Source of the DNA: Anaerolineales bacterium | Lineage (GTDB): Bacteria > Chloroflexota > Anaerolineae > 4572-78 > NAK82 | Reading direction: 5' to 3' | NCBI GenBank assembly: GCA_024643945.1 | Contig: JAHELX010000160.1 | Coordinates: 1-6,086 of the forward strand | DNA: 6,086 bases | Shown here: one piece after another, positions 1,471 to 6,076 of the stretch | How positions within the stretch are numbered: the stretch's first letter is position 1 | Layout of the letters: each line of letters starts with the position of its first letter | Notes under the pieces: model-generated | Seen by the model: only the letters and a program-made list of their open reading frames with translations | What the model was told of the DNA's origin: nothing | The model's database searches: none | Made by a program: the position numbers and the translations under genes

Positions 1471-2271
1471 TCATGCTCGCAGCGTCACGTCTCCGGTCAG
1501 GATACGTACTGCCTCTCCGTTGGTTTGGCGCAACAAGAGCGCGCCCGTCTCGTCCACTCCCTCGGCCACACCCTCGTAGACAGCCTCGGGCGCGCTGATG
1601 GTCACCCGCTGTCCCAACGTCGCTAACCGCGCCACCCATTCCTGGTGGGGGCTATGGCCAGCCCGCAACGCATCGTAGCGCGCTTCGACGCCGGCCAGGT
1701 AGCTTTGCAACAGTTGCAGTCGCGAGACCGGTTGTCTCATGGACAGCGCCAGGCTGGTGGCTGTGTCGCTTAGATCAGGCCAATCGTTGCGGAGGGCCTC
1801 CGACGCAAAATCAACGTTCACGTTGAGTCCCAATCCAACCACGACCCACGCCAATTGTCCCCCAAACCCAAGCTCCGTCAATATGCCTGCCAGTTTCTTG
1901 CCATCTAAGAGCAGATCGTTGGGCCACTTCAGGGCGGGCCGCAAACCGGTGACCTCTCGCACCGCGTCGGCAGCAGCCAGCGAACAGATCATTGTGAGTT
2001 GCTGTGCCTGGGTTGGAGCCAGGAAGGTCGGGCGGAAAAGCAGGGACGTCAACAGGCTGGTGCCAGCCGGCGCGATCCACCTGCGCTTCAACCGACCCCG
2101 GCCGGCCAACTGTTCGTCGGTAATGGCCAGGGTGCCTTCCGGCACTCCCTCATCTGCGAGACGCTTTAGCTCGTCGTTAGTGGAGCCTATCGCCGGCCAA
2201 TAGTAAATCGTCTGACCTATGTATTGTGTTCGCAATCCAGCACGGATTGCTCCTGGCGAGAGATTATCCAT
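1471..2271 (-). CDS. birA: biotin--[acetyl-CoA-carboxylase] ligase (biotin protein ligase)
   Basis: This enzyme makes biotinyl-5'-AMP from biotin and ATP and transfers biotin to the lysine of biotin carboxyl carrier domains, as in acetyl-CoA carboxylase. The protein has 266 residues. Seen: STND (30-33), the adenylate-binding glycine-rich loop GRGRLKRRW (57-65), LKWPNDLLLDGKKLAGILTE (114-133) with the KWPND motif and catalytic lysine region, VVVGLGLNVN (143-152), and a small C-terminal beta domain (about 218-266). There is no N-terminal winged-helix, so this is a class I, enzyme-only ligase that should not repress biotin genes itself. The start is the ATG at 2271-2269, with AGGAG six bases upstream. 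The frame stays open to 2352, but that extension is encoded by the palindromic repeat and lacks family similarity. The gene stands alone, with a hairpin after its stop and the 169-bp repeat element directly upstream. Confidence 0.97.
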   Translation of the reverse strand: MDNLSPGAIRAGLRTQYIGQTIYYWPAIGSTNDELKRLADEGVPEGTLAITDEQLAGRGRLKRRWIAPAGTSLLTSLLFRPTFLAPTQAQQLTMICSLAAADAVREVTGLRPALKWPNDLLLDGKKLAGILTELGFGGQLAWVVVGLGLNVNVDFASEALRNDWPDLSDTATSLALSMRQPVSRLQLLQSYLAGVEARYDALRAGHSPHQEWVARLATLGQRVTISAPEAVYEGVAEGVDETGALLLRQTNGEAVRILTGDVTLRA

Positions 2272-2289
2272 CTTAAGCTCCTGGAAGCT

Positions 2290-2458
2290 GTCTGAAAGGT
2301 CGTGGGGCAGGCTTTCTAGCCTGCCCTGGGCAGCCTGGAAAGGCTGCCCCACTGGTGGGCTTTCTAGCCTAATTGGGCAGCCTGGAAAGGCTGCCCCACT
2401 GGTGGGCTTTCTAGCCTAATTGGGCAGCCTGGAAAGGCTGCCCCACGACTTTTCAGAC
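2290..2458. repeat. 169-bp palindromic element with 21-bp terminal inverted repeats
   Basis: The left end (2290-2310) and the reverse complement of the right end (2438-2458) match at 20 of 21 bases; both begin GTCTGAAA and end GTCGTGGGGCAG. The interior alternates hairpins. One is type B (2305-2326), with 9-bp arms GGGCAGGCT and AGCCTGCCC and loop TTCT. Three are type A (2328-2349, 2375-2396, 2422-2443), with arms GGGCAGCCT and AGGCTGCCC and loop GGAA. Two decayed B copies are centred at 2358-2369 and 2405-2416. There is no coding capacity and no clear target-site duplication. It resembles a REP/BIME-type intergenic repeat or a MITE-like element. It sits 18 bp upstream of the birA start codon, so it may be transcribed in birA's leader. 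Confidence 0.85.
2328..2446. repeat. 47-bp tandem repeat, about 2.5 identical copies
   Basis: Units begin at 2328, 2375 and 2422, at an exact 47-bp period. The first two full units are identical, and the third is truncated after 25 bp (2422-2446). Each unit is a 9-bp-stem hairpin with a GGAA loop followed by a decayed hairpin core, GGCTTTCTAGCC. Identity between copies points to recent duplication or slippage inside the palindromic element. Confidence 0.92.
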
Positions 2459-2481
2459 GCATTCTTAGCCTCAATTGACTA

Positions 2482-2566: not shown

Positions 2567-3394
2567 ATGACAGAAGAGGTAAGATTCGCCCTTCAACTCG
2601 GCCTCAACCTGGCTGCTGTCCTGCTCGCCGGCTGGTTGGCAGGACGTTATGCCGCTCGTCAGGTGCAGAAGATATTGGAGGCTGAACGGCGACGCGCTCA
2701 AGCGGCACGCCAGCAGGTTCAGGCTGAGGTCGTAGCAAACCTGCCTCCCATCCCGCCGGAATTGGAGCAAATGGTCGAGATAGAACGTTGGGTGTTGGCG
2801 GCTCGTGACTTGCAACTTCTTTTGACGTCTCTCTGCACGCTGATCAGAATAGGCCTGCGGGCGGATGAGACAGGCCGACGGGGAGTGTTGACAGAAATTG
2901 ACCGGTCGCTGCAATTCATGGGGCGACAGGAGAATAAGTGGCTCAATGCCTCGTTGCCGGTCGTTGCTTATGTCCGCCACCTTGATCCTGCCAAGGGGAA
3001 GTCGCCGGAGCAATCTCTGGAGACCTGGGTCTCCCGCCTCAATCGAGCGCACGTGCAAGCAGCCCAGTCTTTACGTCGGGCAGCCAGCTTGTGTCATCCT
3101 GACCAGGATGAAGAATACGGTAACACCCTGGCCAACGTTTACCTGACCGAGGCCGATCGGGCGACATCCGACATGGCCGGCGTTATCGCCTCGACATTGG
3201 ACCGGGTTGCATATCTTCAGAAACAACTTCCTGAGCTTCAGGCACAGCAAGTTGCCGCTGCTGTTGCCGGGCCTTCAATTGGTGACTACCAATTCCCCGC
3301 CGAAGATGACGAATATAAGTTGAAGGGTCCCCCTGCGGTCTCTTCTGATCCGCACGCGGATGTAGCGACATCCGCAAGCCACATGGCCCGTTGA
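2567..3394 (+). CDS. hypothetical single-pass membrane protein with coiled-coil stalk
   Basis: I do not recognise a family; the product has 275 residues. Seen: a short acidic N-terminus (MTEE), one hydrophobic membrane segment (about 8-26), then a basic, Arg/Gln/Glu-rich helix (27-56) with coiled-coil character, a Pro-rich break at LPPIPPELE (59-67), a mostly helical middle (68-225) and a disordered, acidic tail (about 235-275; AEDDEY at 245-250). The basic residues straight after the membrane segment suggest that the bulk lies in the cytoplasm (inference from the positive-inside rule). No catalytic motif is visible. The start is the ATG at 2567, with GGGGAG 8 bases upstream. A TTG codon at 2549 in frame precedes that ribosome site and is rejected. 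It is monocistronic, divergent from birA and convergent with the transporter, with 12 bp between stops. It may scaffold or interact at the membrane, but no function is claimed. Confidence 0.85.
   Translation: MTEEVRFALQLGLNLAAVLLAGWLAGRYAARQVQKILEAERRRAQAARQQVQAEVVANLPPIPPELEQMVEIERWVLAARDLQLLLTSLCTLIRIGLRADETGRRGVLTEIDRSLQFMGRQENKWLNASLPVVAYVRHLDPAKGKSPEQSLETWVSRLNRAHVQAAQSLRRAASLCHPDQDEEYGNTLANVYLTEADRATSDMAGVIASTLDRVAYLQKQLPELQAQQVAAAVAGPSIGDYQFPAEDDEYKLKGPPAVSSDPHADVATSASHMAR
3277..3294 (+). repeat. perfect 7-bp hairpin inside the 3' part of the hypothetical gene
   Basis: AATTGGT (3277-3283) and ACCAATT (3288-3294) form a perfect stem around the 4-nt loop GACT. It lies in the codons joining the helical part to the acidic tail, about 100 bp before the stop. 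No poly-T follows, so it is not an obvious terminator. Confidence 0.5.
3356..3375 (+). repeat. perfect 8-bp hairpin near the stop of the hypothetical gene
   Basis: GCGGATGT (3356-3363) and ACATCCGC (3368-3375) form a perfect stem with the 4-nt loop AGCG, ending 16 bp before the TGA. It encodes part of the low-complexity tail. It may stabilise the 3' end of the message, but no U-tract follows. Confidence 0.55.
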
Positions 3395-4993: not shown

Positions 4994-6076
4994 TCAAATG
5001 CCACCCCACAAATAGGGTGTTGGGGGCTCAGGGTTGACCCAGCCGATGGGCGCGCCGAAGATGCCAGCCCAGGCAATTGGCTCGACGAAACTCAGCAGTA
5101 GAACAGCCCAGCGTATCCAAGGCCGGCGGATGGGAATAGCTAAGATCGCGAACATCAGTAGATACCAGGATGTCGCCCAGGTGATGCTCTTATAGTAGAC
5201 GATGAAGGCCAACAAAGCCACATAAGTCAGCAATCGTTCGGGATTACGCCGATCCAGTGCCATGCCCGTCAAGACGACCAGCAATGCGCCATAGGTGGCT
5301 ACAGCATTAAAGATTAACTGCCACATAGGTGTGCCACAAGTCCTGGTGTCATCCGCGAAATTCCACACGAAGGCGTTACAGTTGGTGGCCATCACCTGGC
5401 TGCCCAGGATGTGGAAAATGTAATCACTGAAAAGGACAAAGAGTAGGCTGGGCACGAAGGCGATTACGAAAATCATCAGTGGGCGCAGTCGCCGTTCCTG
5501 GTTCAGGAAATAGGGCAGCAACAGGCCCGGCCAGTACTTGGCCTGGATGGCAAGTCCCAGCCAGCCATAGCTCCAGGCAGTGCGCAGGGTCAGGTGTAAC
5601 AGGGCCAATAAGGTGAAAAAAACGACCAACGATTCATATTGGCCTTCGCCAGAAATCCACCAGATGCTTACCGGGTTTAGAAAATAGAACAGCCCATAGA
5701 GTTTGTCACCCGTGATGCGGGTGATAAGCAAGCCGTTCGCCAGCTCGAGCAATGTCAGCACCAGCCGGGCGAAGAAAAGGCTGGGCCAGATGCCAGCCAC
5801 AGCGGCGAAGAAGAGCATTGACATCGCTGGATAGATGAATTGCAGGTCTGGCCACAGGTTGGAATAGGGTGTGTTGCCAAAATCCCGGGGTGTGTAGTTA
5901 TAAATCGCCAGGCCGTAGGTCCAAAACTCTTTTCCGAAGCCAATGTAGCGCAGCAAGTCGGTGGAATTGATGGGCGGTTGGGTGGTGAGGTAGAGGCGTC
6001 CGAGTAAGATCAATGCGTAGGCGCAAGCCAGCATATAGAAGGATCGAGTTTGCCCTTTTAGTTGCAAACTTCTCAT
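4994..6076 (-). CDS. polytopic membrane protein, GT-C-type glycosyltransferase-like (start uncertain)
   Basis: The product is 360 residues with about ten hydrophobic segments, the first at 16-32 and the last near 322-340. Seen: an acidic residue in the first loop, in INSTDLLRYIGFGKEFW (36-52), then IYNYTP (58-63), FIYPAMSMLF (80-89), LNPVSIWWISGEGQYESL (133-150) and AIQAKYWPGLLLPYFL (176-191). Known: a loop-1 Asp, a Y-P near membrane segment 2, an NP...GQ segment and a K..P..LLP segment recur in GT-C transferases, which use polyprenyl-phosphate sugars to glycosylate lipids or glycans on the outer face of the membrane. Asp40 would be the catalytic candidate (inference). Q-Y-E replaces the more usual Q-x-D. 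The ATG at 6076 has only a weak, badly spaced AGG, and the frame stays open to the right edge, so the true start may lie outside the window. The acceptor and sugar cannot be told. It could be another multi-pass protein with similar layout. Confidence 0.75.
   Translation of the reverse strand: MRSLQLKGQTRSFYMLACAYALILLGRLYLTTQPPINSTDLLRYIGFGKEFWTYGLAIYNYTPRDFGNTPYSNLWPDLQFIYPAMSMLFFAAVAGIWPSLFFARLVLTLLELANGLLITRITGDKLYGLFYFLNPVSIWWISGEGQYESLVVFFTLLALLHLTLRTAWSYGWLGLAIQAKYWPGLLLPYFLNQERRLRPLMIFVIAFVPSLLFVLFSDYIFHILGSQVMATNCNAFVWNFADDTRTCGTPMWQLIFNAVATYGALLVVLTGMALDRRNPERLLTYVALLAFIVYYKSITWATSWYLLMFAILAIPIRRPWIRWAVLLLSFVEPIAWAGIFGAPIGWVNPEPPTPYLWGGI

Follow-up and report, generated by a model that had tools for sequence, protein, structure and literature searches.

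What kind of element lies between a birA-type gene and a divergent 275-aa ORF in the 6,086-nucleotide stretch of Anaerolineales DNA analyzed here (the window), and why do two of its hairpins differ by the exchange of a single base pair? The palindromic cluster is intergenic and spans 2284-2464 (Table 1). A preliminary description, made from the letters alone, had noted inverted ends and two near-identical hairpins, had suggested a mobile or structural family (MITE or REP/BIME-like), and had read the paired exchange as a sign that the folded form was retained. We consider it likely that two non-autonomous mobile elements are nested at this locus as a composite, a REPIN array inside an IS5-family MITE-like shell.

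Anatomy of the locus

Hairpins A (2328-2349, plus strand) and B (2326-2305, minus strand) differ solely at positions 7 (C/G), 10 (G/A), and 16 (G/C). Positions 7 and 16 are stem partners, and the paired swap is real. Both hairpins adopt the fold first drawn, with 9 bp in the stem and 4 nt in the loop (-10.8 and -11.1 kcal/mol, DNA parameters). The 9-bp REP stem is GGGCAGSCT/AGSCTGCCC, with TTCT or TTCC as the loop and GTGG as the tag, and the cluster thus has the makeup of GTRG-tagged REPs, in which a GTRG tag stands immediately 5′ of a 6-13 bp stem with a short loop. Hairpin A occurs three times (starting at 2328, 2375, and 2422), as does the B core, GGCTTTCTAGCCT, which is found in one full REP and twice in a shortened REP. 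The REP/BIME-like label was correct: two inverted REPs with tags pointing outward (2302-2326, plus; 2328-2352, minus) form a REPIN/BIME arrangement that is followed by further 47-bp units. The core is a GTRG-type REPIN made of two inverted, non-identical REPs (2302-2352), which probably expanded in place as a REP-REP unit of 47 bp was duplicated in tandem.

The 21-bp ends that had been proposed, 2290-2310 and 2438-2458, do match at 20/21 positions; the chance expectation for such end pairs is about 1.6e-5 (6,086 bp, 180 distances, uniform base composition). Nine of the 21 bases, GTGGGGCAG, are REP sequence, so that the outer arm proper has 12 bp, 11/12 of which match. This arm extends outward by six weaker bases, giving a 14/18 match between 2284-2301 and 2447-2464.

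Table 1. Features of the palindromic cluster and its neighbors (window coordinates)
Feature	Position	Strand	Remarks
Biotin protein ligase gene (birA)	1471..2271	-	BPL_LplA_LipB and BPL_C domains
Left outer arm	2284..2301	+	GAAGCT + GTCTGAAAGGTC; MITE-like terminal inverted repeat
REP B	2302..2326	+	GTGG tag and 9-bp stem, loop TTCT; left half of first REPIN
47-bp tandem unit, copy 1	2327..2373	+	Copy 2, 2374-2420, is identical
REP A, copy 1	2328..2352	-	GTGG tag and 9-bp stem, loop TTCC (minus-strand reading); right half of first REPIN
Shortened B-type REP, first	2355..2369	+	GTGGGCTTTCTAGCC
REP A, copy 2	2375..2399	-	
Shortened B-type REP, second	2402..2416	+	
47-bp tandem unit, copy 3	2421..2446	+	Truncated after REP A
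REP A, copy 3	2422..2446	-	
Right outer arm	2447..2464	-	GACTTTTCAGAC + GCATTC
TTA at expected 3-bp TNA target duplication site	2465..2467	.	Left counterpart, 2281-2283, is CTG
275-aa ORF	2567..3394	+	No Pfam match; divergent from birA

The mechanical birA ORF (1471-2352) runs via a GTG into the REP array; ATG 2269-2271 is the likelier start codon. A search with the 275-aa ORF found 48 proteins (itself included, identity down to 55%); relatives P0002-P0005 are 90-97% identical to it, and the two proteins with NCBI names are both from Anaerolineae; a search of 33 genomes, run without a positive control, gave no match. The ORF sits between birA and an MFS gene. In two genomes, G334 and G253, birA and the MFS gene are adjacent, and their junction, which contains neither the element nor the neighboring ORF, is no clean empty site. 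Elsewhere in the window, a 360-aa ORF at 4994-6076 has no Pfam match and, by eye, abundant hydrophobic stretches.

Could the cluster be a transcribed structure, such as a stabilizer or attenuator of birA mRNA, that was retained for its function and is not mobile DNA? The 181 nt fold strongly (-71.1 kcal/mol, DNA parameters), and the element ends 12-18 bases from the likely birA start codon (12 to the arm at 2284, 18 to 2290). However, the genes on either side of the element are divergent, the birA locus leaves no space for such an element in either G334 or G253, and no Rfam family reaches its gathering score anywhere in the window. We regard this explanation as extremely improbable.

Copies in other genomes and the paired swap

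Are there other copies, and do their stems covary? At the DNA level, the genes of the window match best within the class (396 genomes) of Anaerolineae bacterium TGS_CHL14 (G001), which we take to be the class of the window. In G001 itself, scoring 40 of 78 candidates gave at least 11 matches with the element region. BLAST of 2288-2354 against the class (E ≤ 1e-4, two candidates scored per genome) found copies in 15/396 genomes, at 26 or more places. Beside one match, L170 in G167, GTAGGACAGGCTTTC REPINs form a tandem array. Plasmid records contained no match to the element, and viral contigs gave no hit to the arm pattern GTCTGAAARGTCGTGGGG and seven matches to the hairpin pattern.

When one genome per species was scanned with the pattern GTGGGGCAGNCTNNNNAGNCTGCCC, in which both partner columns of the swap were left free, at least 114 stretches were returned, from Acidobacteria, Kiritimatiellales, Desulfarculales, Anaerolineae, and others. 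Among the matches listed, the partner columns form Watson-Crick pairs in 127/135 REPs, compared with 75.5 expected if the columns were independent; the 135 REPs are not independent of one another, because many come from one acidobacterial genome, and perfectly palindromic sites are entered on both strands. The pairs in these matches are G-C (92), A-T (32), T-A (2), and C-G (1), with G-T in 3/135 and neither kind of pair in 5/135. In a second set, consisting of the window and 29 loci from G001 and the class search, 45/46 REPs are Watson-Crick paired (16.7 expected), although REPINs from related genomes are likewise not mutually independent. Complementary stem substitutions are therefore found among the copies, and the additional copies with paired substitutions that the preliminary description had named as support for its reading do exist in other genomes.

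Does the swap within the window then signify that folding was kept? Stems are indeed retained among the copies, but the swap has a second effect, which is to make the two REPs of a pair differ. All 25 parsed class REPINs, the window included, are heterodimers at the swap column (13 genomes counting the window; 5 of 30 REPIN rows were unparsed), where random pairing from the same pool would give one-third homodimers. Three of the 25 (L164, L179, and L172) differ through a broken pair. By eye, two of the unparsed rows are heterodimers (L167 and L175) and two have one broken REP each (L165 and L168); since the fifth, L174 in G094, looks homodimeric, the rule probably has at least one exception. 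The BLAST query is itself a heterodimer and may bias the class search toward heterodimers. It is not the sole cause of the excess, because the three further G001 dimers from a one-REP pattern scan (a fourth, L046, is the same site as L125) and 4/4 dimers beside a RAYT gene in another genome, G269, are also heterodimers.

Outside the class, the two dimers beside an acidobacterial RAYT gene are homodimers with long spacers, and in other phyla 10/27 parsed dimers are heterodimeric. Both pairs are Watson-Crick in just two of these 10, L022 and L108; each of the other eight contains a REP whose pair is G-T (1) or broken (7). Pattern-to-pattern spacers are 7 in L022 and L108 and 6 to 32 in 17 homodimers from other phyla, all but one at 9 or more, while class spacers are 4 to 12 (4 to 7 in 22/28), a comparison in which spacing is confounded with phylogeny.

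What could favor unlike partners? In our energy estimates, folding into one long hairpin would benefit a homodimer of either window REP by 9.1 or 10.5 kcal/mol (-32.5 or -33.9 versus -23.4), and the window heterodimer would gain nothing (-23.1 for the long hairpin versus -23.4 for the two-hairpin form). The two-hairpin form is at least as good in 11/14 REPINs, as judged by a simple ladder search for the long hairpin, not a full constrained fold, applied to 14 of the 25. By these estimates, the swap preserves each small hairpin and cancels the 9-10 kcal/mol advantage of the long one. Through the C-G/G-C exchange, each REP would keep its own hairpin while the long perfect palindrome was lost; perhaps REPs in perfect mirror symmetry would fold together as a single long palindrome and do harm, and this may be why heterodimers were favored. 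The accessible text of a 2013 survey reports heterodimers in many families, sees no obvious explanation for the preference, and suggests that they could be shielded from SbcCD or similar enzymes (Di Nocera et al., 2013; PMC3733652).

Outer arms and IS5-family ends

If the core is a REPIN, what are the arms? Many REPINs lie central to an outer inverted repeat, and this repeat varies among genomes and even inside G001. In a test of flanks that left out two single REPs (L182 and L183), the outer inverted repeat exceeded the 99% shuffled-flank level at 12/30 class REPIN loci, including the window. When the flanks were instead cross-paired, a control into which copies of one composite enter, 5/30 loci lay above the 99% level, and the window was not one of them. 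For the same REP type in other phyla, 0/26 dimers had an outer inverted repeat above the 99% shuffle level. The arms are not part of the REPIN; probably, an old MITE shell here encloses a REPIN array.

The arms of the window belong to a type, GTCTGAAARGTC, that surrounds other repeats in G015, G213, G269, and G280. The G269 shells hold GTAGTGAGGCACG-type repeats (GTCTGMAAARTCG at 11 sites versus 1 for the control), and those of G280 and G015 hold GTAG..CTAC dimers. Counts of TGTCTGAAAA, with those of the control in parentheses, are 189 (7) in G015, 29 (7) in G213, 22 (8) in G280, and 10 (1) in G269. Three G213 loci (L379-L381) combine the same shell type and TNA duplications with a non-REP TGTCATTTCGAG palindrome in place of REPs. 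The left arm of the window (2284-2299) equals the shell arm of one of them, L379, at 15/16 positions. With this match and arms that agree at 14/18 positions, the window has terminal inverted repeats of the IS5-family (IS1031-like) MITE kind. Across the class, closely paired GTCTGAAAR arms occur at 16 places in 12/396 genomes, compared with 15 places for a reversed control pattern, and thus the arm pattern alone proves nothing outside the enriched genomes, of which G015 (4 versus 0) and G280 (2 versus 0) stand out. Two short shells, L383 in G213 and L328 in G015, are nearly empty between their arms and could be REP-free forms; neither has equal flanking TNA.

The proposal that the 21-bp ends are the ends of a single MITE can be set aside, as at least five other arm types hold such REPINs (L123/L125, L128/L130/L131, L173/L184, L168/L172, and L180) and similar arms hold other repeats.

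Do arms and core move together? Left arm, core, and right arm are each 96% identical between L130 and the reverse of L131, with 33 and 17% outside; the corresponding values for L179 (G152) and L164 (G067) are 100, 88, and 91%, with 27 and 27% outside. For L123/L125 and L173/L184, core and left arm agree and the right arms are 64 and 45% alike in ungapped comparison; L130 and L128 are alike in core (94%) and right arm (75%), with no agreement in the left arm (33%). Because arms and core have been copied as a unit in other class genomes, REPINs appear to travel as MITE cargo.

The flanks of the shells are informative as well. TNA duplication has been reported for the IS1031 subgroup of IS5 (PMC12016507, accessible text). 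We examined 36 distinct frames fitting the arm pattern, drawn from the window, L123, L125, L314-L328, and L359-L391 (L162, which was also taken, L392-L398, and the G269 frames are not among the 36). In 21/36 frames, the two sides carry the same 3-mer at six bases outward of GTCTG, and 21/21 of these are TNA; at control offsets of 4, 5, 7, and 8 bases, identical 3-mers number 1, 1, 0, and 0. The duplicated frames come from G015 (15), G213 (3), G280 (2), and G064 (1). By eye, TTA stands on both sides of L162, and TNA in 6/7 G269 frames whose far end was found (11 frames in total), three of them with a shift of one base. In the window copy there is no intact 3-bp TNA duplication, since the flanks read CTG on the left and TTA on the right.

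IS5-family elements with similar ends exist. The complete element L415, from the class genome G151, has ends GAAAGTGTCTGAAAA, TAA on both sides, and a transpos_IS5_3 match of 234.8 bits; the profile match identifies the IS5 family, and we place the element in the IS1031 subgroup by inference. The arms of L123 and L125 in G001 (approximately CTAGGGTGTGTCTGCAAA) match the ends of an IS5-family element in G149, L414. Among the 29 IS loci L401-L429, L415 is the one with GTCTGAAAA ends and L414 the one with G001-type ends, and a PF13586 search of G015, G213, and G269 found none.

Might this instead be a plain REPIN/BIME cluster, inserted into a palindrome (a target hairpin) that was already there and now forms the 12-bp outer inverted repeat? 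REP dimers within palindromes are described in Anabaena variabilis, Thermomicrobium roseum, and Halothiobacillus neapolitanus (PMC3733652, accessible text), and the absence of a target duplication in the window copy fits this idea. Yet similar arms carry TNA duplications in other genomes, the arms resemble IS5-family ends, and arm types have been copied along with the core, all of which makes such a target hairpin unlikely. We favor the nested composite. The MITE label of the preliminary description is probably also correct, given that the locus resembles a REPIN nested in a MITE; the arms bear it out, and the missing intact duplication does not. We call the shell of the window MITE-like and not a proven MITE, since its arms are only 14/18 alike and no intact duplication is present.

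RAYT linkage and the spread of REPINs

Is a RAYT linked to these REPs? In an acidobacterial genome (BP6.bin107), a Y1_Tnp gene, L249, has GTRGGRCAGGCTTTCYAGCCTGYCC REPs of the window type on both sides, and its protein scores 79.7 bits against the NCBIfam REP_Tyr_transpos model (REP-associated tyrosine transposase; cut-off 80). The G269 RAYT (L205/L264) scores 87.8 bits and is flanked by a related REP pair; in the set of Y1_Tnp loci that included it, L205 alone had a REP related to those of the window. Relatives of this RAYT are encoded by 94/396 class genomes (E ≤ 1e-10). At the 30 such loci that were fetched, GTRG hairpins are present on both sides in 20 and on at least one side in 26, compared with 0 and 3 in a control with one shuffle per locus. 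G001, which is rich in copies, has no match to the G269 RAYT at E ≤ 1e-10; its two other Y1_Tnp matches have no adjoining GTRG hairpins.

It has also to be considered that the copies are a MITE family with a merely palindromic center, moved by a DDE transposase alone, to which the GTGG tag and the RAYT link would be incidental. The G213 shells with their non-REP TGTCATTTCGAG repeat, together with the lack of a G269-type RAYT in G001, would fit. But the same REP type occurs in other phyla, where none of the 26 tested dimers has an outer inverted repeat, and it flanks the RAYT gene L249, and so we find this account very unlikely.

In the nested composite that we favor, the REPIN core would be the kind of DNA that RAYT/TnpA_REP HUH tyrosine transposases recognize as single-strand hairpins with a 5′ GTRG tag; the shell, resembling the terminal inverted repeats of an IS5-family (IS1031-like) MITE, would have been moved by a DDE transposase that duplicates TNA. 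REPINs would then spread as MITE cargo and, presumably, by RAYT. The window copy itself may have moved in the manner of a MITE, and a RAYT or DDE transposase of the host may have acted on it. A more far-reaching and tentative idea is that, in Anaerolineae and relatives, REPINs have repeatedly become cargo of IS5-family MITEs and serve as a dual substrate, single-stranded for HUH and double-stranded for DDE enzymes. Only heterodimers might then persist, because the REPs abut nearly without a spacer, and the swap would keep the hairpin that RAYT reads while removing a palindrome that the cell would destroy.

How does the element compare with known systems, as their accessible texts describe them? 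GTAG-tagged REP families include GTAG-20 (Opitutus terrae) and GTAG-23 (T. roseum), whose ends are mostly GTGG, and GTAG repeats occur in Chloroflexi (PMC3733652). As described, these families resemble ours in having a GTAG-type tag at one end, 6-13 bp stems with short loops, stem residues that alternate in complementary fashion, and inverted dimers, both homo- and heterodimers, some of them within palindromes. A difference is that here the arms in other genomes can be linked to ends of the IS5 family that carry TNA duplications. REPINs of Pseudomonas fluorescens SBW25 share two inverted REPs, compensatory changes, tandem clusters, and a RAYT link (PMC3116915); there, however, compensatory changes flank one long hairpin, whereas here the change lies within one REP and opposes the long hairpin. 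E. coli BIMEs, mosaics of y-z1 or y-z2, likewise contain two inverted REP types and tandem copies, but the E. coli types are of unequal length (35, 29, and 37 nt; PMC8266576), and the two REPs here differ by one swapped pair and a loop base. TnpA_REP activity involves the REP palindrome and the tag (PMC8266576). The IS1031 subgroup and its MITEs (ISLrh ends, 5′-GAACCTGTCTAGTATCT-3′, with TNA duplication; PMC12016507) share GARNNTGTCTG-type ends and, in other class genomes, the TNA duplication; the shell described here differs in containing REPINs and, in the window copy, in having no intact duplication. A tandem repeat inside a different MITE has been described (PMC4596501).

REPs, REPINs, RAYTs, heterodimers, and REP dimers inside palindromes are already known, and compensatory changes in REPs have been published (PMC3116915). 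In our literature search, with subscription journals mostly outside it, no paper linked palindromes of this kind to IS5-family ends and TNA duplications. Bacteria commonly carry REPs as repeats, and their dissemination is called poorly understood (PMC8266576, accessible text), and a REPIN copied within a DDE-type MITE would be a second route of dissemination. If true, the proposal that heterodimers persist because REPs abut would answer why heterodimers prevail, which the accessible text of Di Nocera et al. (2013) leaves open. With heterodimers as the rule, a simple reason in energetics, and spacing as a possible factor, this question would become one that can be tested directly in a laboratory strain.
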